Below, piece by piece: positions 7,981-60,922 of a stretch of DNA of 64,000 bases. The DNA comes from Liopterus haemorrhoidalis (taxonomy: Eukaryota; Arthropoda; Insecta; Coleoptera; Dytiscidae). The notes under the pieces are model-generated. The model did no database searches and had not been told where the DNA came from. It saw only the letters and a list, made by a program, of their open reading frames with translations. Numbering within the stretch: the stretch's first letter is position 1; each line of letters opens with the position of its first letter. A program made the position numbers and the translations under genes. The DNA lies in the NCBI GenBank assembly GCA_963971575.1, contig OZ020618.1, positions 51,474,509 through 51,538,508 of the forward strand, read 5' to 3'.

Positions 7981-8059
7981 TTATACTTTAATCTATTTAT
8001 TATTGTAAAACAATTATATTGTTATAAGAATAAACTATTTTTTACGTTTTATAGAAAAT

Positions 8060-8195
8060 ATATTCATTTTTCCCTTCGATACTTGTCATCGATATTTTGT
8101 TTGGATACGATACCGGTATCGATACTTATCATTCGATATTATCGATACCCAAATATCGATTCTTTCTCAGTATCGCATATCCCTAAGCAGAACCT
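8060..8195. repeat. Cluster of ATCGATA-type motifs
   Basis: About ten overlapping copies of TATCGATA/CGATAC variants lie within 130 bases. Similar dense clusters of short palindromic motifs occur near the ends of the hAT-like elements at 39134-40455 and 56465-57864, so this may be a lone sub-terminal region of another such element. No matching partner end was found. Confidence 0.5.
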
Positions 8196-8569
8196 TGATA
8201 GTTTTTTGCCGTTATTTCAGTTACTCTGAACAAATATAAATTTCATTGTTCACATGAGTAGACAGGACCGTCACGAGATTTTGTTTATTCAGGGCTGAAA
8301 ATAAATATATGTTTGAGCTTAGCATAACAATAGGGATGTAATCATGCGGACCTAAATTGCATAAATATGTATAATTTGGGTTTTAACACGAATACAGGCT
8401 AATTTATTTATGGTAATTTTTTATCAGATTATTGTAATTAGAATTAAATAGATAATGTTACTATACAAGATCCTTGAGGATTTTCAGGCAATACTATTTT
8501 AACAAATTGTCAATCTGGCTCTGTTAAAGGCATTATAACTAGCATACGGTTTTTCCATGTTTCTTTGTA

Positions 8570-8705
8570 CATCTTTGTTAAAATAATTATTTGTTAATTT
8601 TTTTTCTTTCTGCTAGTCGTGGAGAAAGTAGGGTCTGTGACTCGGTTGGAAGAGAAAATTCGATACTCGTGGTTCCCCACGCTCTCCTGCGGCTCGCGCT
8701 GGAGA
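8570..8705 (+). repeat. Dispersed repeat Y, copy 1
   Basis: This matches 44310-44425 closely, from TTTGTTAAAATAATTATTTG through GTAGGGTCTGTGACTCGGTT to GCGGCTCGCGCT. The second copy continues into a hairpin arm that this copy lacks. I do not recognise the family. Confidence 0.65.
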
Positions 8706-8837
8706 GAGATTTTGAGTAACAAACTGATTAAGGAGTATCCACGTTTTAGTAAAATCTATCACTTTTATTGGTCAGCATAGCTCATACATTAATAAAAATT
8801 TAAAAGGTATAATATAATACTCCAATGGAAGTTTAAA

Positions 8838-10130
8838 GTGAAGAGTATCCTCATGTACGGAGTGGAGATCTGGGGATGGAAGGAATGGGAGATAGTAGAA
8901 AAGGTACAAGAGGGATACATGAGATGGATTATGGGATTAAACAGAACGACACCAGGATATATAGTGAGAGAGGTAATGAAGAGGGAAAAGCTGAGAGTGG
9001 GAGCCGAGGCGAGGGCGGCGAAGTATGAGGAGAAAATCAGAAGAGACGAACAAAGGAAGATACTTAGAGAATGCTGGGAAGAAAGAATGAAGAACAAAAG
9101 GGTAAACTGTTGGAATGGGGAGAGACAAGAAAAAAGTACTATTAGAGATGTGGGATGGACACTGAGTGAAAGAGAAACAGAGGAAGAAACATAGTAGAAG
9201 AATTGAGGAGGAGAGATAAGGAGGTACAGGAACAGGAAAGAACTGTAAGAATAGACAATTCAAGGAATGTGAAAAGGTATAGAGAGATAAGGACGGTAGG
9301 AATACCTAAATATTTGAAAGGGATGAGAGGAAAGGCAGGGGGGAAGGATTACCAGATTAAGATGTGGAAATGAAGAACGGAGCAACAGGTATTGGGCAAA
9401 ACCAGATGATAGACTATGCAGGATGTGTAAGGAGGAGGAAGAATCCTTAGAACATCTAACAAAAAATTGTGGAAAGATGACAAAATGGGAGGAAGAGATA
9501 AAGGAGCTGTTGTGTGAAGAAAGCAAGGGAGAAAGATGGGCAAGAGTACTCGAGGAAAGAAGGAAGGAATGCGGAGAGGTAAAGCAGGACTGAGAACAGG
9601 AAGGGAGAGGCAAAGGAGGAGGAAAGAAGAGAGGGAAGAGAAGCGAAAAAGAGATGGGAGTCGAAAGGGGAATAGGAAGAAAGAGAGGGACACTGGAAAA
9701 AGAAAGAAATGAAAGATAGTTATTTAGAGAAAAGATGCAGAGGGAAGGCAGTTTGGGAGGACGAGATAAAGAAACTGATAAGCGAGAAAGCCAAGGGAGA
9801 AAGATGGGCGGAAGAACTGGAGTTAAGAAGGAAGGAAATCGGAGAGGGAAGCCGGAATGGAAACAGGAAGAAACAGAGAGTGACCGGAGGAAGAGCAAAG
9901 AAATTTATATAAATGTTTTGTAAAGATACTCATATTAAGAAGTGTAAGGAAGAGGAAATCTTTGAGCATTTAGCGAAGAGATACGAGTGATTGGAATACC
10001 AAAATACTTGAAGGGGGAAAGAGGAAGATCAGGGAGTAGTCAGGAGGATAGCAAGGCTAAGGTGCGACAACGAGGAACGGAACAATAGATAATGGGCAAA
10101 GCGAGAGGACAAGCTCTAGAATGTGACCAA
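8838..10130 (+). pseudogene. LINE ORF2 C-terminal region, frameshifted and partly duplicated
   Basis: Non-LTR retrotransposon ORF2 proteins combine endonuclease, reverse transcriptase and a C-terminal region. The first frame (8838-9194) carries YGVEIWGWKEWEIVEKVQEG, YIVREVMKREKLRVGAEARA and a long charged helix region. A second frame continues VGIPKYLKG, and a third (9360-9593) holds RCGNEERSNRYW followed by a CX2C-X8-H-X4-C zinc knuckle and KGERWA. The KGERWA block recurs at 9790-9850 and the VGIPKYLKG/CDNEER block at 9980-10100, so the tail has been locally duplicated. The layout is like the R1/I-type tails common in insects, but the clade is not certain. The RT domain itself is absent. Confidence 0.75.
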
Positions 10131-11098
10131 AACTTACCAAAATACCAGAGTGGAAAGAAATTAAAAATGGTTTGTAGTTTTAATAATAATATCAACTCAA
10201 TATATTGCTCAAGTATTTTATACTTAAAATGGGTATTTGTTTTTACTTCTATTTCATAGGACTAGTCGTAGCGTCACGCTTATCACGTAGCTTTTCTAAA
10301 AATCCAAAAGAAATTTTCCATTATAATCTCATAAATATTTTTCACTAAGATACTCACATATTGTACTCCTTAATATTCGTAAATGTTCTCTATCAAAATT
10401 TAATGAATTCAAATGACCCAAATCACGATATTTTCACACTCCATTATACACTAATTTCCACACAAAGAACTAATAAACTCGTGACCTTATCCAATCAAAT
10501 ATATTCCAGATTTGAGAATAAAATTCATATTTAAATTTGTCAAATGGAATAGCCAACAATTCCAACTAACGAGTCTCATTGTACTATTGGCGTATTGACA
10601 GTTTTTAGGCGACATATTTCCACTTACGCCATCAGACTGGATTGTATTCGTGTTCCTGGGAACTTATAGTTTATCCCTAGGGAAGGAAAACATAGGCGGA
10701 ACATCAGGGATTTAAAATTAGTTGAACAGAAGTATACGAAAATGCACAGTGAAACATGATGTAATAAATTCTTTATCAGAGAATTTAGTTTTTAAGTTAT
10801 TAAAACAGTTAAAGATTCTAGGTTTTACTGGTGCCTAGAATTAGTCAGTTCATAAACTTGTACGTATTTTTTTGGAAGATTTAAAATACTTAAATAAAAC
10901 GCATATATATTTAATCACCTAATGCGTATTATTTTTAAAAACGGTAAATATTTCTATATAATAATAAATAAATAAATAAATAATATAATTTATTGACTAT
11001 GTTACAATACATAAATTGTTTAAAGTCAGTCGAAATTACATATAATATACACAAAATATTAATTTAAAATAAAAGAAAAAAATAAATAGATATAGTAC
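10131..11098. other. No recognised gene
   Basis: AT-rich with a short (AATA)n run near 10960-10985. I see no coding or repeat signature that I can name. Confidence 0.4.
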
Positions 11099-11212
11099 AA
11101 GGTGTCTCAAAAGAAATTTTATATTTATTTAGCTTACTGCGTGAACGCAACGTATCCGAGGGGCGCGGGGGTTATGTCAATCGGTAGCCTGGCTCTTGGG
11201 AATTTAGTCACT

Positions 11213-12070
11213 ATGGAGCGTTTCTCGAGAGCAGACCGCGCGTTATGCGTGCGAGACTTTTACAAATTTTGCAGTATTCGAGGTTTTCGCCACTTAAATG
11301 ATGCGCCAAGCATTCCCCTCATTCGACATTGGGTTAAAAAGTTTGAAGAGACTGGTACAACGCTGGATAAATCAAAATCCGGGCGACCTAGGTCATCAAG
11401 AACGGTAGAAAACGTGGAGAATGTTAATCAGTCTGTTCGTGACGACCCGAACCCTTCAATTCGAAAGCGTGTAAGTGCTTTAAATGTGCATAGATCATCA
11501 TTTCATCGCGTTATGCACAAAGACCTAAAGCTGCACCCCTACAAAATTCAATTGGTGCAAGAATTAAAGCCCCAAGATGCCAATCAGAGGCTTAATTTCG
11601 TAAATCAGGTGATTGAGCGATTTTCAACGTTTACCAACATTTTGTTTTCGGATGAAGCTCATTTTCATCTTAATGGCCACGTAAATAAGCAGAACTGCCG
11701 CTACTGGAGTGCAACGAATCCGAAACGCAAACATCAGAAACCCCTACATTCGCCTAAAGTGACCGTATGGGCTGCGATGTCGGCGCGAGGAATTATCGGC
11801 CCTTACTTTTTTGAAGACGAAAGGGGGCGTGCAGTTACAGTGAATTCAGAGCGTTATGTGGAGATGTTAGACAACTTCTTGGTACCTGAACTGCAAAACT
11901 TTCCTGGCTATAACCAAAGAACATGGTTCCAACAGGACGGAGCAACTTCACACACGTCCAATATGTCTCTGCCACGTGTTCGTGAAATTTTCTCAGGCAA
12001 ATTGATCTCCCGGAGAGGTGACATAAATTGGCCCAACATAGAGATCAGGACCAACTGGAACCACAAATAG
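11213..12070 (+). pseudogene. DD41D-type Tc1/mariner transposase, C-terminally truncated
   Basis: A 286-codon frame is open from the ATG at 11213 (MERFSRADRALCVRDFYKF). Order: an N-terminal helix-turn-helix region, the GRPRSSRT hook and a second HTH to about residue 110, a DDE nuclease domain with its first Asp in FSDEAHFHLNG (residue about 150) and its second in WFQQDGATSH (about 243), then GDINWP, where homology stops. In relatives the third Asp follows in a SPDLTPCD motif; extrapolated, 41 residues would separate the last two. Here the frame runs into unrelated sequence, so the triad is incomplete. The frame also extends upstream to 11102 without a better ATG; GGTGTCTCAAAAG at 11101 may be the left terminus. 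Confidence 0.8.
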
Positions 12071-12152: not shown

Positions 12153-12195
12153 ACAGCTCTGATGAAGATTTTAAATATTAATCGAAACATTACCG
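12153..12195 (+). ncRNA. Hammerhead-like core, degenerate
   Basis: The stretch contains CTGATGA (12159-12165), one extra A, a 4-bp stem (GATT/AATC with a 9-base loop) and GAAAC (12184-12188). This is the order of a hammerhead ribozyme core and matches the layout of the motifs at 32511 and 52331. No stem I partner for the upstream ACAGCT is present, so it is likely inactive or coincidental. Confidence 0.3.
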
Positions 12196-15216: not shown

Positions 15217-15598
15217 TAGGGTGACCATCCGTCCCGGTTTTTCGGGATTATCCCGGTTTTAGGTCCCCGGTGTCCCGAAAAATGTTCTCGGGACGCCCTA
15301 TTGTCCCGGTTTTTGAGGTGAGGACTCTTTTTGCTCTTCACTTTGAATTTGGGGGAGGTGAGGACATTTTTGTTTTTTTTTTGCTCTTTACTTTGAATTT
15401 GGGAGGTGAGGACCTTTTTTTTTCTCTTCACTTTGAATTTGGGAAGTGAGGACTTTTTTTTTTTGCTCTTCACTTTAAATTTAGGGAGGTGAGGACCTTT
15501 TTTTTGTTTTGCTCTTTCACTTGGATCTGGGAGGAAACAAAGACCTTCTTTTTTTCCCCTCTGTCCCGGTTTCCCTTCACTGAAATCTGGTCACCCTA
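15217..15598. mobile_element. hAT MITE with perfect 8-bp duplication
   Basis: Termini TAGGGTGACCA and the complement of TGGTCACCCTA are inverted, and both flanks are GCATATAC (15209-15216 and 15599-15606), an exact 8-bp duplication as produced by hAT transposases. The interior consists mostly of about four tandem repeats of roughly 55 bases. The same terminus (TAAGGTGACCA) bounds the hAT element with transposase sequence at 44525-45545, a plausible relative of its donor. Confidence 0.9.
15305..15535. repeat. Tandem repeat of about 55 bp inside the MITE
   Basis: Four to five units, each built from GGTGAGGAC, a T-rich run, TTTGCTCTTCAC and TTTGAATTTGGGAG, differ mainly in T-run length. The lysine-rich reading frame this creates on the minus strand is an artefact. 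Confidence 0.8.
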
Positions 15599-16505
15599 GC
15601 ATATACTAAACAGTGATAGATAAAAAGTGATGGTAGTGTCATGAAATTCTTTAAAGAGTAACCTACAATCGGCTCTATAAGATGCACTCCCCATCACTCT
15701 TATTGCACGCCTCTGTAGTCTAAAAACTCTTTCAGCAGAGGCAGAGTGTCCCCATGCTAAAAGAGCGTATGCTATGTGCGACTGAAATAACGCAAAATAC
15801 GTAATTAATAAAACATCCCTTGTAACTTTTTGTAGGTTTCTTAGAAGATAGATGGTTTTGCACAATTTCCCACATATATGAGCAACGTGATGGTCCCGTA
15901 TCAAATGAGGATCAATATGGACTCCTAAAAATTTAATGCAATCCGGATTATTATAGTTATGATTTTTTGTTGTTATGAGTAAATTTTGTGTTTTCTCCTC
16001 ATTTAATGATAATTTATTTGATAAAAACCAGTCTTGTGCTTTAGATAAATTATGACTAGAAACATGTTGCATGTGTTCCAGGGACAACGATCTTGTTATA
16101 AGGGTCATATCATCGGCATATAAAATAGATTTCGTCTCAATAGCAGAAGAGAAATCATTGAAATAAATTAAAAATAGTAATGGACCTAAAATTGAACCCG
16201 GCGGTACTCCATACATAATATTGAGCGAATTTGACTTAGAATTATTTATACAAACTGTTTTCTGTTTGTTAGATACGATTCTATAAGTGAACAGCTACTG
16301 TGACTGAGATGTACATAGCAAGTTTAGCAAGTAATATATCATGCGATACACAGTTAAAAGCCTTGCTTAAATCCAAGGAAGTAGATAAGCAAAACTCTTT
16401 AGCTTCAAAACATCTGGATATTTCGAGAATAAATTCCAATAGCTTGTCTGGTGGATCTATTTTTCCTAAAACCAAACTGTGACTCACTAAAGAGGTTATT
16501 ATGAA

Positions 16506-27029: not shown

Positions 27030-27351
27030 AACCGCATTTGCTCTGTACGTGTACACAGACAGACGGACGGACGGACGGACAGACAGACAGACCGACAGAC
27101 AGACAGATAGACAGACACACCGTCAAACATCATGCTAAAAATAGTCAAAACGATATGTAGGGACCTGAAGATGGATCTCCAGGAAATCCATCAAAACTGA
27201 CGGACGGACGGACGGACGGACAGACAGACAGCCAGACCGACAGACAGACAGATAGACAGACAGACCGTCAGACATTATGCTAAAAATAGTCAGAACGATA
27301 TGTAGGGATCTGAAGATGGATCTCCAGGAAATCCATCGAAACGGACGGACG

Positions 27352-29663: not shown

Positions 29664-30530
29664 ATGGATAAAAAAGAATTTCGTGTGTTGATTAAACATT
29701 GTTTTTTGATGGAAAAAATACTGTTGAAGCCAAACAGTGGCTTGACAAGCGTTATAGAGACTGAACCAGGAAAATCAACTATTACTGATTGGTATGCTGA
29801 ATTCAAACGCGGTCGTACAAACACCGATGATGCTGAACGCTCTGGTCGCCCAAAATCGGCAGTTGTTCCGGAAAACATAAAAAAAGTCCACAAAATAGTT
29901 TTGAAAGATCGTTAAGTGAAGTTGCGTGAGATAGCTGACACCTTAAAGATATCAGAAGGTAGTGTGTTGCATGCGTAAATTGCTTTCGAAGTGGGTGCCG
30001 CGTTCGCTTACACCAGACCAAAAACAACAACGCTTCGACGATTCAGAGCGCTGTTGGGAGCTGTTCAAGCGAGATAAAAAGGATTTCTTGCATCGGTATG
30101 TGACAATGAAAACATGGATCCACTACTATACATCTGAATCAACAAGATCGTCAGCTGAGTGGACAGCAGTCGGTGAAATTCGTCCAAAGCGACCAAAAAC
30201 TCAAAAGTCAGCTGGAAAGGTTATGACATCCGTATTTTGGGACGCGCATGGTATTTTGTTTATCGACTATCTTGAGAAAGTTAAAACTATCAATAGCGAA
30301 TACTACATGGCATTATTGGATCGATTGGGTGTAGTAATCAAGAAAAAAAAGGCTTCACATGCATAAGAAAAAAGTGCTCTTTCACCAAGACAACGCCCCG
30401 TGTCACAAGTCGATGAAAACGATGGTTAAATTGAATGAATTACGCTTCGAATTGATTCCTCACCCACCGTACTCTCCAGATCTGGCCCCCAGCGACTACT
30501 GGCTTTTTGCAGATCTCAAAAAGATTTTAT
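29664..30530 (+). pseudogene. Mariner transposase (irritans-like), frameshifted
   Basis: From the ATG at 29664: MDKKEFRVLIKHCFLM, KSTITDWYAEFKRGRTNTDD, AERSGRPKSAVVPENIKK, a stop, VKLREIADTLKISEGS, then in other frames KLLSKWVPRSLTPDQKQQRF, RDKKDFLHRYVTM, KTWIHYYTSES, SAGKVMTSVFWDAHGILF, KVLFHQDNAPCHKSM and PHPPYSPDLAPSDYWLF. The first catalytic Asp (expected DETW) reads KTW here; the second (QDNAP) and third (PSDYW) are present. At least four frameshifts or stops and a missing C-terminus make it inactive. Near full length, it matches the irritans subfamily. Confidence 0.88.
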
Positions 30531-31856: not shown

Positions 31857-32335
31857 ACCGACCGCCAACATATATAAGGGAGGTATTGTGATCATACCGA
31901 TTTTGACATTTCGAGATTTCGATGGATCTCCACGAATTGAGGTCCCTACATAACGTTTCGACTATTTTTAGCATGATGTCTGTCGGTCTGTCTGTCCGTC
32001 TGTCTGTCCGTCTGTCTGTCTGTCTGTCCGTCCATCTGTCTGTCCGTCTGTCCGTCTGTCTGTGTACACGTGCAGAGTAAATTCGGCTGAAAGGATTTTT
32101 ATGAAACTTCATATTTAAGCTTCTGCCATCAATGGCACAAGTTGATCAACTTTTGGTAAAAATCGGTTGACTAAAAATGGGAGTTTACTCGTGTCGATTT
32201 TAAGATTTTTGTAAATATTTCGAAAAAAATTATTGAACAAAAGGTGCTATAAAAGCAATAACTAATAACTTTTATTTGAGACGTTTTTTGATAAAACGAA
32301 AAATTTCGAATAATTTCTGTAAAATTTTTCGAAAT
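31857..32335 (+). mobile_element. GTCT-array repeat (HINE-like), copy 7, 3' truncated
   Basis: The 5' end ACCGACCGCCAACATATATA is intact, the array spans 31978-32063, and the body continues to an AT-rich stretch at about 32335. The 3' hairpin end is missing and a hammerhead-bearing repeat follows. Confidence 0.8.
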
Positions 32336-32367: not shown

Positions 32368-32399
32368 AGTGTAATGGTGAGATATCTCACCATTACACT
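32368..32399. repeat. Perfect 32-base palindrome
   Basis: The sequence from AGTGTAATGGTGAGA to its exact complement has no spacer (centre at 32383/32384). It marks the upstream edge of the hammerhead-bearing repeat and may be a hairpin at a retroelement junction. Confidence 0.85.
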
Positions 32400-32615
32400 A
32401 ATACTATTATCTCAGGTATGTCTTACAATGTTATACTTATAACTTATATTATATTCATTTATTCATATACGATGTACACTTATACTGTATTCTGATTTTC
32501 CTTTATGTAGCAGCTCTGATGAAGGAATAAACTATTCCGAAACTGGTCAGCTCTAGATAGTTGTTTTTATTCATGTCCGATACCCGTACAACCTTTCCAC
32601 TTTTAATATTTATAC
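32400..32615 (+). repeat. Hammerhead-bearing repeat, copy 1
   Basis: About 215 bases match each arm of the inverted pair at 52045-52456, from ATTATCTCAGGTATGTCTTA through GATGTACACTTATACTGTAT and the ribozyme-like core to ATACCCGTACAACCTTTCCA. No protein is encoded. Short non-coding repeats carrying hammerheads are known from Penelope-like elements and retrozymes; which applies here is undecided. Confidence 0.7.
32511..32554 (+). ncRNA. Hammerhead ribozyme-like motif
   Basis: Stem I strand AGCT (32512-32515) pairs with AGCT at 32549-32552. Core CTGATGA is at 32516-32522, then one extra A, stem II GGAAT/ATTCC with loop AAACT, GAAAC at 32539-32543, a two-pair stem III (AC/GT, loop TG) and C at 32548 as the predicted cleavage-site nucleotide. 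All catalytic-core bases of the hammerhead consensus are present. An extra residue between A9 and stem II has precedent in a natural viroid hammerhead. Cleavage is predicted, not shown. Confidence 0.65.
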
Positions 32616-33759: not shown

Positions 33760-34298
33760 GCCGATCGCCAACATATTTAAGGGAGATATTGTGATTATAC
33801 CGATTTTGAAATTTCGAGATTTCGATGGATCTCCACGAATTGAGGTCCGTACATAACGTTTTGACTATTTTTAGCATGATGTCTGTCGGTCTGTCTGTCC
33901 GTCTGTCTGTCTGTCGGTCTGTCTGTCCGTCTGTCTGTCTGTCGGTCTGTCTGTCTGTAGGTCTGTCCGTCCGTCCGTCCATTTCGATGGATTTCCTGGA
34001 GATCCATCTTCAGGTCCCTACATATCGTTTTGATTATTTTTAGCATGATGTGTGACGGTCTGTCTGTCTATCTGTCTGTCTGTCGGTCTGTCTGTCTGTA
34101 TGTCCGTCCGTCCGTCTGTCCGTCAGTTTCGATGGATTTCCTGGAGATCCATCTTCAGGTCCCTACATATCGTTTTGACTATTTTTAGCATGATGTTTGA
34201 CGGTGTGTCTGTCTATCTGTCTGTCTGTCGGTCTGTCGGTCTGTCGGTCTGTCGGTCTGTCGGTCTGTCGGTCTGTCGGTCTGTCGGTCTGTCTGTCC

Positions 34299-44524: not shown

Positions 44525-45545
44525 TAAGGTGACCAGCCGTCCTCCTTTTGTAAGATCTGTCCTTCCTTGAAAAGTGTCCTCCTTTTCGATATTTGTCCTC
44601 CTTTTCGTAAATTTTCGTATTCGATCGATGCCGAGCCGATCCGTTGCAATTGATGTGACTTATTTGCATTTGACATTCGTCAAGGTTAGGTAGAATACCG
44701 CGAGACGCGATTATGAGACGCATACGCTCCGAACGGGAGATCCTGCGAAAGCGCGTCGCACACAAGTAGCTTTGTTTATTGGGAGGAATCAAATCCAGGC
44801 ATAACAGAAAAATTTATCAAAGAAGTGCAGAAATTTTACCAAACATGTTTTCAATATATCGAAGAATGGTTTGAAACAAACACCTTGGTAAATAATTGTT
44901 TTCAATGGTGTTTTTTTACTTCATTGCAAGTAAATTGGACAGATATTGAATCATGTGTTGAGTTTTTATCTAAAGAAATGCCAGATGTTAAAATAGACGA
45001 CAATTGTCTCTTTGAAGAAATTAGAAAACTGAATGTATATTTAAATTCTGAAAAATTAATACAATGGGAAAATCAACACGTTGAAATTGATAAAAGATGG
45101 GTAGAAATATTCAGCCATTTTAAAAATGAACATATTCCATGTGAAAATTTATCTATTCTTATTCAATTTACCTTGTGCTGCCCTGGAACTAATGCAGCAG
45201 TTGAAAGAGTTTTTTCAATTGCTAATGATTTTTAGACAAGTGAGAAATCTAGATTGAATGTTGATACTCTAGCTGCAGCATTTGCAGTAAAATTCAATAT
45301 GAAGGATATTTCTTGTTCAGATATTACCAATATATTGTTATAAGATGATACTTTGACAAAAAATATTCATTCGATTGATAAGTACTCGTTTAAATAATAA
45401 TTAATCATTATGAGTTTTTATCAACAAAGTTTTTATTTTACATTTATCATATTATAGTGTATTATTGTTGCAAATAATAAAATGGAAAAAAATTACTATC
45501 TTTCCTTGTGTCCTCCTTTTCAATGTAAAAAATTTGGTCACCTTA
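44525..45545 (+). mobile_element. hAT element with partial transposase
   Basis: Termini TAAGGTGACCA and the complement of TGGTCACCTTA bound a 1.02 kb unit. GTCCTCC motifs recur near both ends. The flanks GGTACAT(T) and GTTACATT resemble an imperfect 8-bp duplication. It lies inside a mariner and carries the C-terminal part of a hAT transposase. The MITE at 15217-15598 shares its terminus. Confidence 0.8.
44786..45343 (+). pseudogene. hAT transposase C-terminal region
   Basis: About 185 codons in one frame with a single in-frame stop at 45233-45235. From ESNPGITEKFIKEVQKFYQT through YIEEWFE, DIESCVEFLSKEMP, HVEIDKRWVEIFSHF and SILIQFTLCCPGTNAAVERV to FSIANDF, stop, SEKSRLNVDTLAA and a final stop after NILL. 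The PGTNAAVERVFS block and the following KSRL helix form the hAT dimerisation domain at the C-terminus of these transposases. The N-terminal BED finger and first catalytic residues are deleted, so the element is non-autonomous. Confidence 0.82.
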
Positions 45546-50916: not shown

Positions 50917-52031
50917 CACTGCCCAACAAAATAATTTTTTAACTTGGTGCCGGAAAAGTAAGAACTGATTTTGGATATTTTTGATGTGCTTATTCCAAAA
51001 ATGCCTGACTATTTTTCGTAGCAGCTCTAGTTTTTGAGATACAGACTAATTGATTTTAGTTTTTTATCTAAAAACAGTAAACTTCCTCCTTGGACAGCAA
51101 AGTGGATATACAAAATATCCTTGTTTTTTATGTCTTTGGGACAGCAGAGCTAAGGATCAGCACTGGGTTAACACAAATTGGGTGATTTCCATTAAGAAAT
51201 GTCATAATTCAAGAAAAACAAAACATTGTCAACGAACCTTTGATTGCGAAAGAGAAAATTATATTTCCACCCTTGCATATCAAGTTTGGGCGTATGTACC
51301 AATTTTTGAAGGCTTTAAATCGAGATGGACATTGTATAGGCTACTTGATACGTAAATTTCTTGGACTTAAAAACTAAAAGCCTGAATATTTAATGGTCTT
51401 CAGATAAGGCAACCTACTGAAGATCCACAATCCAATCCAACCGCTTCAATGAACGAGATTGAATCTAATTCTTGGTGTTCATTTATTCAAGTAGTACAAA
51501 ATTTTATTGGAAATAATAAGGCAGAGAATTAGTGGAAAATATGCTTTCCAACTTTAATATTCTCGGTTGTATTATGAACACTTACCAGAAAACCTAGGTT
51601 ATTTTAGTGAAGAACCGGGGGAAAGATTCCATCAGGACATAAAACTATGGAAGATGGATATCAAGGAAGATAAGATAGGCCATCAGCCTACTACTGTTGG
51701 AGTCTTCAGAAAGACTGTTCTGGTAAACTCCATGCTAGAAAATCGTACAAAAGAACATTTTTAAGTGATGAATGTATATTTATCTACTTTGTGAAATAAA
51801 TACCTTACTTTGTCTCTTTTGTGTATGTAACTGGCAGTTGGAGTAAATAGTAACAGTAATAACTGGAAAAATACACAAGTTAAGAAATAAGATATTTTAT
51901 TGTAAAAGAGGCCAATATAGCGTATCTCAAAAACTAGATCTGATAGACCAAATCTGAGGGCTATTTTGGATTCGGTGCCAAAAAATTACCTAGAGACAGT
52001 TAAAAATTCACAGGCCCCAAAATGTCTGTTT
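50917..52031 (+). mobile_element. Family U element, diverged copy d
   Basis: The left terminus TTACACTGCCCAACAAAA resembles the CACTGGTCAACA end of copies a-c. Inverted similarity between the two ends of this copy (TAGTTTTTGAGATAC near 51030 and TCTCAAAAACTAGA near 51925; GGTGCC blocks) supports a TIR element. The right terminus itself is not resolved; a hammerhead-bearing insertion follows at 52045. Confidence 0.55.
51056..51764 (+). pseudogene. Family U protein pseudogene, diverged (unknown function)
   Basis: The opening LKTVNFLLGQQSGYTKYPCF and LCLWDSRAKDQHWVNTNW are close to copies b and c, but the middle has decayed (KFLGLKN, ending of a SWCSFIQVVQNFIGNNKAEN segment). The end retains YFSEEPGERFHQDIKLW and a remnant of the basic tail before the stop at 51764. 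At least three frame changes occur. The CFLC and ERFHQD blocks are conserved across all copies that reach them, which marks them as the functional core of the unknown protein. Confidence 0.65.
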
Positions 52032-52087
52032 ATTGCAAATAAAAGTGGAAAGGTACGGGTATCGGACATAAATAAAAACAACTATCT

Positions 52088-52135
52088 ACAGCTGACCAGT
52101 TTCGGAATGGTTTATTCCTTCATCAGAGCTACTAC
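52088..52135 (-). ncRNA. Hammerhead ribozyme-like motif, minus arm
   Basis: On the minus strand: AGCT pairs with AGCT for stem I (plus weaker G-T pairs outside), core CTGATGA (complement of 52120-52126), extra A, stem II GGAAT/ATTCC with loop AAACC, GAAAC, stem III AC/GT, and predicted cleavage after GGTC, at 52094/52093. Confidence 0.7.
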
Positions 52136-52330
52136 ATAAAGGAAATTCAGAATACAGTATAAGTGTATATCGTATAAGAATAAATAAATATAAAAAAATA
52201 AGTATCAGTATAATATTTCAAGACATACCTGAGATAATAATCTTGCAATATTATACTTATACTTATTTTTTATATTTATTTATTCTTATACGATGTACAC
52301 TTATACTGTATTCTGATTTTACTTTATGTA

Positions 52331-52375
52331 GCAGCTCTGATGAAGGAATAAACCATTCCGAAACTGGTCAGCTGT
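52331..52375 (+). ncRNA. Hammerhead ribozyme-like motif, plus arm (best structure)
   Basis: Stem I is six pairs (GCAGCT 52331-52336 with AGCTGT 52370-52375, last pair G-T). Core CTGATGA 52337-52343, extra A 52344, stem II GGAAT 52345-52349 with ATTCC 52355-52359, GAAAC 52360-52364, stem III A-T and C-G with loop TG, and C at 52369 as cleavage-site nucleotide. This satisfies the type I hammerhead consensus except for the extra A and the very short stem III, a shape reported for retroelement hammerheads that act as dimers. Confidence 0.75.
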
Positions 52376-52469
52376 AGATAGTTGTTTTTATTTATGTCCG
52401 ATACCCGTACAACCTTTCCACTTCTATTCATTACGGACACGACCATCTCCACAACGATTGCAAATAAAA

Positions 52470-53085
52470 TATTGTAGAAAAGTTTCAGTCTCATTATTCA
52501 GATGTTTACATGAAAGAGTTAGAGAGGAAATTTGTGTGATTTGTATGGTCTGACATTTTCTTTTGAAACACTCAGATCACAAGTAAAAGTACCGTTGCAG
52601 CGATAATTCTCCGGTTGTGCAGTCAAATATATCAGTGTACAGTTGGGTCCTGGACGTACAGTACAGTTGTGTGTTGAATGTTTCTGTAGAGGTGGATATT
52701 CTTTTGAGTGTAAAGTGTTAGATGGAGATAAGATTGTGAGCGTGGATTGAAGTCAAAGTGTAACAAATAGAAGGAGCGCTACCGTATGCATGGATCAGCC
52801 GGCCTGAAAGACGATTCTTGAATATGAATGAACATGTAGATATAGACATGTCATGATACCGAGCACGTATGACATCACGAGTTAACTTCTCACTTCTTTA
52901 TTGGACTTGGATTGATCTAAGGATTCAAATGGAAAATTCATATTTTTACGTGCATCGACAAAATAAAATATTACAAACAGTAGAATTACAAGGGTTACCT
53001 TTTATGTTTTTACAAACGACCACTAGATAGCAATATTGAAATGTGTCATTACTATATTTGTAAAATTTAATGTTTGTTATTGTGA
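52470..53085. other. No recognised gene
   Basis: Nothing recognised. Confidence 0.4.
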
Positions 53086-58705: not shown

Positions 58706-60104
58706 CAGTGAATTTATTTTTTAATGCAACATATACTATGTCAGTACCATGGATACAGTTTTTGACAGCAATATAAATCGTGTTCATTTTCATTTGCAAC
58801 ATAGACAATTAGTGTGTATACTTTTGCTCATTGCTGATTTAAAAATTAATCAACATGTACACAGATGAAGAAAAAATAATGATGGTAACTTGGTACAACT
58901 CACAAATGAGTTTAAGAGAAGTTTCTGCTGTATTTAGTGCAACTTATCCAGATCGACCAATACCAAATCCCTCTACAATTTCAAGACTAGTTAATAAATT
59001 TCATCGCGAAGGATATCTTAAGTCAAACATAATAAAAAAAAGAACAACATCCCACGTGCTTACAGAAGAGAAGCAGTTGGAAATATTATTACAAGTGGAA
59101 GAAAACAATCAAAATACTTTAAGATCAATTGCACAAACCGTTGGTGTCAGTATTGGATCTGTTTTTAACTTCTTAAAAAAAGAAAAGTTTCGATCATACA
59201 AATTTCAAAATCATCATGAAATGTTAGAAAGGGATCCAGCAGTACGTATGGATTTTTGTTTTGAAATGATTGAAAAAATTAATTCCGACCCAACAATGCT
59301 TCAAAGAATTTTATTTACTGACGAAGCAACGTTTACTCTAAATGGTGAAGTGCACAGACAAAATTTTATGTACTGGAGTCCAGAAAATTTACATTTGTTT
59401 CATTCCTCCCAAACTCAAAGGCCGCAAAAATATTTGGGCAGGGATAATAGGAACCAATATTATAGTGCCTTTTTTTATTGACGGTAACCTTAATGCCGCA
59501 ATATATCTAGCCCTTTTGCAAAACCAAATATTACCTGCGTTGCGAAACCTGAATATTAATGGACAAGTATGGTTTCAACATGATGCCGCACAAGTCCATT
59601 ATTCTAGAATAGTTAAAGAATATTTACATAGAACTTTCCCAAATAGCTGGATTGGAAGAGGAGGGTCGATGAATTGGCCAGCGAGATCTCCGGATTTGGC
59701 AATGATTTTTTTTATTGGGGATATTTAAAGGCCAAAGTATATAATGGAGAACTTAAGGATGTTGCTGAACTGCAAGACAAAATTGTTCAAGCATCCAACA
59801 ATATACCTCAAGAGCAATTGCTGAATGTTTTGAATCATTTTTATGATCGTTTAACATTTTATATGCAAGTAAACAGAGAAACTTTTGAACATTTATTATA
59901 AGTTTTTATTAGTCATTTATTCATTATTATTATTATTATTATTATTTTTTTTTTTTATTTGTATTTTCAATAAAATATTTTGATTTTGTTAGTGAATATG
60001 TTTTTTTTATGTTACAAATGAAAATGAACACGATTTATATTGCTGTCAAAAACTGTATCCATGGTAATGACATAGTACATATTGCATTAAAAATAAATTC
60101 ACTG
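58706..60104 (+). mobile_element. DD41D-type Tc1/mariner element with 100-bp TIRs
   Basis: Inverted ends of about 100 bases, from CAGTGAATTTATTTTT through ATGGATACAGTTTTTGACAG to CATTTTCATTTG, match with about four differences. TA flanks both sides (58704-58705, 60105-60106). The 1.4 kb unit is filled by one transposase gene with two frameshifts. The near-identity of the TIRs suggests a fairly young insertion. Confidence 0.93.
58855..59901 (+). pseudogene. DD41D-type transposase, two frameshifts
   Basis: ATG 58855 opens MYTDEEKIMMVTWYNSQMSL, an N-terminal helix-turn-helix region, followed by PNPSTISRLVNKFHREGYLK and a second HTH (NTLRSIAQTVGVSIGSVFNF). The nuclease domain has its first Asp in LFTDEATFTLNG (residue about 157), a frameshift near 59400, its second Asp in VWFQHDAAQVHY, then GGSMNWPARSPDLA, a one-base loss near 59706, and NDFFYWGYLKAKVY with the third Asp. 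Restoring the phase gives about 41 residues between the last two Asp. The C-terminus runs to a stop at 59899-59901. About 348 codons in total, the usual length, so only two small lesions separate it from a full gene. Confidence 0.9.
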
Positions 60105-60647: not shown

Positions 60648-60698
60648 ATTTTAGGCTGAAGATGCGTTGACTAATAAACGCGAAACGTACCATAAAAT
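60648..60698 (+). ncRNA. Hammerhead-like motif, second family, plus
   Basis: Stem I: GG with CC, then after a one-base bulge ATTTTA with TAAAAT (60648-60655 with 60690-60698). Core CTGAAGA 60656-60662 (the consensus allows any base at position 7), one extra T, stem II GCGTT/AACGC, GAAAC 60682-60686, then GT and A at 60689 as cleavage-site nucleotide. Stem III would be ACGT, self-complementary without a loop, so a dimer would be needed. Confidence 0.5.
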
Positions 60699-60869
60699 CT
60701 TGTTATTAATTTTCCTAAACAACAAACTGACGATAAAAGAAGAACATTTTATAACTATATATATATATATATATATTTGGATATTTGGTTCTTGATAAGG
60801 ATTATATGAAATAAAACGCAGGTTCTCTTTTATTCGTCAGTTTATTAAAATTAATTCTTTGTCAATTTA

Positions 60870-60922
60870 TAAAATTCGAAACGTTTCGTGCATGGGTAGT
60901 ATGCACATCTTCAGTCTAAAAT
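60870..60922 (-). ncRNA. Hammerhead-like motif, second family, minus
   Basis: On the minus strand: CTGAAGA (complement of 60908-60914), extra T, perfect six-pair stem II GTGCAT/ATGCAC with a 7-base loop, GAAAC, and ACGT for stem III. Stem I is weak (two pairs, a mismatch, two pairs). It faces the motif at 60648 in convergent orientation, with inverted AAACTGACGA/TCGTCAGTTT segments between them. Confidence 0.42.

Follow-up and report, generated by a model that had tools for sequence, protein, structure and literature searches.

A staggered head-to-head pair of hammerhead-bearing repeats in a beetle genome, probably formed by two-ended priming of a Penelope-like element

The origin of the inverted pLTRs of Penelope-like elements (PLEs) has been approached from two sides: self-priming was proposed from rotifer genomes (PMC3846280), while the purified protein of PAc, the Poseidon element of Anolis carolinensis, was found to cut and extend both strands of its target in vitro (PMC11167929). 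A unit of two arms that has a target duplication and oppositely staggered ends separates the self-priming and two-ended models at a single locus. We describe such a unit at 52032-52469 in a 64-kb stretch of the Liopterus haemorrhoidalis genome (hereafter the window). With a probability of about three in four, we consider its insert to be a head-to-head pair of 5′-truncated pLTRs from an EN-containing PLE, formed by two-ended priming. The insert is a real feature, most likely a PLE pLTR pair, whose stagger bears on the question of mechanism, the arrangement itself being known.

The insert (52045-52456) fills the 412 bp between two exact copies of the 13-mer ATTGCAAATAAAA, the left at 52032-52044 and the right at 52457-52469. 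Within it, 68 nt separate two inverted arms, 52053-52197 and 52266-52410, whose 145 nt show 97% complementarity. We assign 52045-52239 to a left pLTR arm whose sense is the minus strand and 52241-52456 to a right pLTR arm whose sense is the plus strand, both with the 3′ end outward. The first-pass annotation had described an inverted hammerhead-like pair inserted head-to-head as a single 412-bp unit with a 13-bp duplication, and the complementarity of the arms, their outward 3′ ends and the exactness of the repeats bear this out.

Searching the window by BLAST with the unit as query revealed a relative with a single arm about 20 kb from the insert. This second copy, a solo pLTR of about 220 bp on the plus strand (about 32384-32605), has a hammerhead at 32512-32552 and an ATG at 32573, and a perfect 32-bp palindrome at 32368-32399 straddles its 5′ limit. 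Its two flanks share no word longer than 7 bp, a length commonly met at random positions, and so give no target duplication for this copy. To its left, at 31900-32330, lies a repeat with several relatives scattered through the window, of which the one at 19461-19893 matches best, with 85% identity.

Comparison of the arms with each other and with the second copy reveals a stagger at both ends. At the 5′ end the left arm is the longer by 16 nt, and TATTATCTCAGGTATG, present in the left arm only, falls in a stretch of 20 nt that is identical in the second copy. At the other end, a 35-nt 3′ extension (52422-52456) is present in the right arm only, making the stagger reciprocal, with each arm having sequence that the other lacks. 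Mismatch counts (gaps taken apart) were checked for arms derived from different source copies, and the 6 differences between the arms, with 10 from the right arm to the second copy and 13 from the left, come from three sequences, too few to decide.

The 13-mer occurs twice on the plus strand of the 64-kb window and not at all on the minus strand. When 4000 random positions in the window were examined, 45 showed a shared exact word of at least 13 bp in the same geometry, and an origin of the duplication by chance is unlikely, though possible. The 13-mer is absent around the second copy, the only other copy available, and on this one comparison the repeat is seemingly not part of the element, as the first-pass annotation had supposed in calling it a target duplication. 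The last seven bases of the left 13-mer, AATAAAA, also differ from the element's own end at a single position. Part of the insert's left flank is matched at about 71% by three dispersed repeats in the window, where no empty site or related flank of the insert was found.

The arms share a candidate ribozyme. Our own descriptor of the type I hammerhead, consisting of a stem I of at least 4 bp, CTGANGA, a stem II of at least 4 bp, GAAA, a stem III of at least 2 bp and NUH, matches three sites in the window, namely both arms and 32516, the last absent from the first-pass annotation, compared with one site in total in 60 Markov-1 simulated windows. The motif of the left arm (52088-52132, minus strand) has its predicted cut between 52094 and 52093, and that of the right arm (52331-52375, plus strand) between 52369 and 52370, each placed by the descriptor; stem III has 2 bp in all three copies. 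A looser pattern, CTGATGA-N8..24-GAAAC, gave 4 matches in the window against 0.23 expected, a number reached by none of 100 shuffles. These matches in both arms agree with the earlier description of minimal type I hammerheads of the Penelope-like kind. The covariance match that was to accompany them was not found, which counts against the hammerheads: Rfam returned no hammerhead in the whole window at gathering scores, nor up to E=10 in 51900-52600, 52320-52390 and 32500-32570, both searches being run without a positive control. This is unsurprising, since PLE hammerheads are described as minimal variants that lack helix III or loop-loop contacts (PMC7761336). They are minimal type I motifs, some of which map to pLTRs (PMC7761336, PMC6155905), and when in tandem they may self-cleave as dimers (PMC7761336). 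In isolation, the three motifs fold little or no better than their shuffles (z of -1.66, -0.11 and -0.45). The hammerhead core had no matching stretch in viral contigs and none in prokaryotic genome contigs, as expected for an animal element. The plant-type miRNA precursors MIR8562, MIR841 and MIR7994 came up in Rfam far under their gathering scores and reflect the AT-rich palindrome.

The hammerhead is best seen as just one component of the pLTR. RNA of the whole unit is predicted to fold into a single long hairpin (MFE -265.3 kcal/mol, z -38.95), and in a transcript of the insert the hammerhead would be buried in this hairpin, probably without cleavage. As the hairpin fold and the position of the two hammerheads on opposite strands suggest, the insert is probably an inert insertion product.

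Read in the sense direction, the sequence of each copy beyond the predicted cut (GTC/AGC) leads to an ATG followed by an open frame, and all three copies run into ATGTCCGATACCCGT there. In the right arm the frame reads MSDTRTTFPLLFITDTTISTT and stays open for 21 codons (52394-52456, plus strand), that is, for 63 nt to +63, followed directly by the 13-mer; its ATG has an in-frame TAG 5′ of it (read by eye), and the arm ends 87 nt past the predicted cut. The ATG of the left arm begins at 52069 on the minus strand, and this arm tracks the element for 25 nt, which a 3-nt deletion brings to about +28, where it ends; the second copy tracks it to about +30 to +33. The pLTR holds about 9 codons, or 21 with the extension. 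In sequence, 52394-52456 looks like the first codons of a PLE ORF, although 21 open codons alone are weak evidence of one, and a search with the 21-residue N-terminal peptide found no relative. We read the extension at 52422-52456, of which no second copy was seen, as element sequence, the PLE 'tail', on the basis of its frame, length and position; it might instead be filler.

These dimensions are close to those published for PLEs. EN-containing Penelopes of rotifers have an inverted pLTR that adjoins a direct pLTR, and Pen2a_Av of Adineta vaga has a 218-bp pLTR that includes the first 12 codons, or 22 with an optional 31-bp tail, the tail sitting on one inverted pLTR (PMC3846280). The insert resembles the Adineta vaga elements, which are mostly head-to-head, in its adjacent inverted pLTRs, its putative ORF codons within the pLTR, its putative tail of about 30 nt on one arm and its short target duplication, and the second copy resembles them in its pLTR of about 220 bp. 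In two rotifer Penelope families, too, the 5′ end of the pLTR is palindromic, over 18 and 38 bp (PMC3846280), a position at which the second copy has its own palindrome. A curation guide likewise lists inverted pLTRs and short 3′ extensions among the peculiarities of PLEs (PMC8969392). Unlike the Adineta vaga elements, the insert consists of two truncated pLTRs only, with no ORF body, and its target duplication is 13 bp, versus 8, 9 or 10 bp in rotifer Penelopes, some copies of which have none (PMC3846280). That paper does not mention a hammerhead for the Adineta vaga Penelopes.

PAc prefers AT-rich targets, and reverse transcription of PAc begins at two alternative internal sites, which delimit its tail (PMC11167929). 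The insert, like PAc, has its hammerhead motif at the junction of pLTR and putative ORF, an AT-rich target and two putative internal starts that bound the putative tail, and cutting and extension of both strands may be supposed here as well. By our own arithmetic the commonest start of PAc lies 85-92 nt past the ribozyme cut (PMC11167929), compared with the 87 nt at which the right arm ends. Differences from PAc are the first in-frame ATG, which is downstream of the cut here whereas the PAc start codon is upstream, and the possible pairing of 6-7 nt between primer and template at the left end of the insert, whereas PAc starts show no homology to the cut DNA (PMC11167929). PAc was tested in vitro, whereas the insert is known from sequence alone.

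A PLE is most likely the source of the insert, on the strength of an anatomy whose parts (arms, stagger, open frame, duplication and second copy) are observed directly. This anatomy appears to fit a PLE closely, with the missing coding body, the longer duplication and the ATG downstream of the cut as misfits. The insert is joined to no coding sequence for an RT or GIY-YIG. A Pfam scan that covered 8 of the 10 window ORFs of at least 130 aa detected no GIY-YIG; one ORF had an RVT_1 fragment, three had transposase or helix-turn-helix domains and four gave nothing. Two descriptions in the first-pass annotation have to be revised accordingly in the light of these comparisons. It had seen a small protein-less retroelement, but the outer ends enter the apparent start of a PLE ORF and the sizes match those of published PLE pLTRs (PMC3846280). 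It had also called the head-to-head form an unusual insertion product, but, going by anatomy, such an arrangement is already known for PLEs and is not unusual; head-to-head is reported to be the inverted arrangement seen most often among Penelopes (PMC3846280).

The anatomy suggests how the insert could have formed. At the AT-rich site, the PLE endonuclease would make cuts in both strands with an offset of 13 bp, so that the 3′ ends span what is to become the duplication; both primers would then include the 13-mer as 13-nt 3′ overhangs, a cut geometry that we infer. From each target 3′ end a sense RNA would be reverse-transcribed, beginning at an internal position of the template close to the ORF start, near +28 for the left end and near +63 for the right, with the difference corresponding to the PLE tail. 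The left primer would end in AATAAAA, six of whose seven bases could pair with the template sequence UUCUAUU. Both cDNAs would stop inside the pLTR, 5′ of the ribozyme, and be joined in the middle, and fill-in of the overhangs would yield the 13-bp duplication. Two separate priming events and a joining would together explain the arms, the stagger and the duplication. That the unit is a clean record of a two-ended, target-primed PLE insertion, with 13-nt 3′ overhangs, separate RNAs, two alternative starts, left pairing of 6-7 nt and truncated cDNAs joined, is a more tentative proposal, to which we give somewhat less than even odds.

The same pLTR pair could in principle have been made by self-priming, in which the template or cDNA folds back at its 5′ end and is copied into its own complement before integration. 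Palindromes at inverted junctions led to this proposal for rotifer Penelopes (PMC3846280), and the central junction of the insert (52239-52241) does sit between two nearly complementary arms. However, the 16 nt unique to the 5′ end of the left arm and the 35 nt unique to the 3′ end of the right are difficult to reconcile with it, as a copied arm cannot exceed its template and a later deletion would also be needed. Because each has element sequence of its own, neither arm can have been copied from the other without such a deletion. The reciprocal stagger therefore speaks against a single snap-back, and it makes separate priming from the two cut strands the favoured course. The end of the left arm also roughly coincides with that of the independent second copy, which again counts against self-priming. 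Together, these observations make self-priming an unlikely origin, and it ranks below the two-ended PLE reading, as do the two remaining explanations.

One of these takes the insert for a metazoan retrozyme, a non-coding, self-cleaving, non-autonomous element that moved via circular RNA and was inserted as an inverted dimer. A type I hammerhead within a short AT-rich non-coding repeat is shared with metazoan retrozymes (PMC7229834), the unit has no long ORF, and retrozymes may themselves depend on PLEs for movement (PMC7761336). Animal retrozymes, however, occur as direct repeats in tandem and carry canonical hammerheads (PMC7229834). No such arrangement is seen among the three descriptor sites in the window, two of which form an inverted pair while the third stands alone about 20 kb away, and stem III is 2 bp in each. 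These minimal motifs, the inverted or single copies and the likely ORF start all depart from the published retrozymes (PMC7229834), and the outer ends of the insert run into the open frame at PLE-like positions. We therefore regard a retrozyme as distinctly improbable, more so than self-priming. Least probable of all is a fold-back or MITE-like DNA transposon in which the resemblance to a hammerhead is incidental. In its favour are the long inverted repeats and their flanking duplication, but the second copy has a single arm, a 35-nt difference between the outer ends of the arms leaves no common termini, and the full hammerhead descriptor is rare by chance, as the simulated windows indicate.

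Two-ended priming, if general, would explain the head-to-head pLTRs of PLEs without self-priming or antisense templates. Comparing both ends of both arms is a simple test that can be used for head-to-head copies in any genome.

Additional hammerhead-like cores and mobile-element remnants were observed elsewhere in the window. At 12159-12188, a CAGCTCTGATGA...GAAAC core resembles the hammerhead of the element; it fails the full descriptor and was left out of the count. Cores of the CTGAAGATGGATCTCCAGGAAATCCATCGAAA type, followed by GGACGGAC runs, lie inside dispersed repeats at 27310 and 27457 on the plus strand and at 34158 and 34013 on the minus strand. Relatives of a transposase are found at 11096-12070; among the 120 listed of its 2242 relatives, those named are from butterflies, moths, a beetle, a termite and an isopod. 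Further transposable-element fragments at 15596-16294, 29947-30366, 44717-45235 and 58843-59481 account for Pfam matches to an RVT_1 reverse transcriptase, a Transposase_1, a hAT dimerisation region and a DUF4817 helix-turn-helix. Strand bias is strong at 8001-10000, where the GC skew of +0.42 and AT skew of +0.22 are the highest of the 2-kb steps. Finally, 60648-60922 contains a second, older inverted pair of hammerhead-like cores from another sequence family, arranged tail-to-tail. Its cores, CTGAAGATG...CGAAACG, face each other at 60656 on the plus strand and 60914 on the minus strand, and its inverted pieces (60648-60745 and 60822-60922) are 80-88% complementary.
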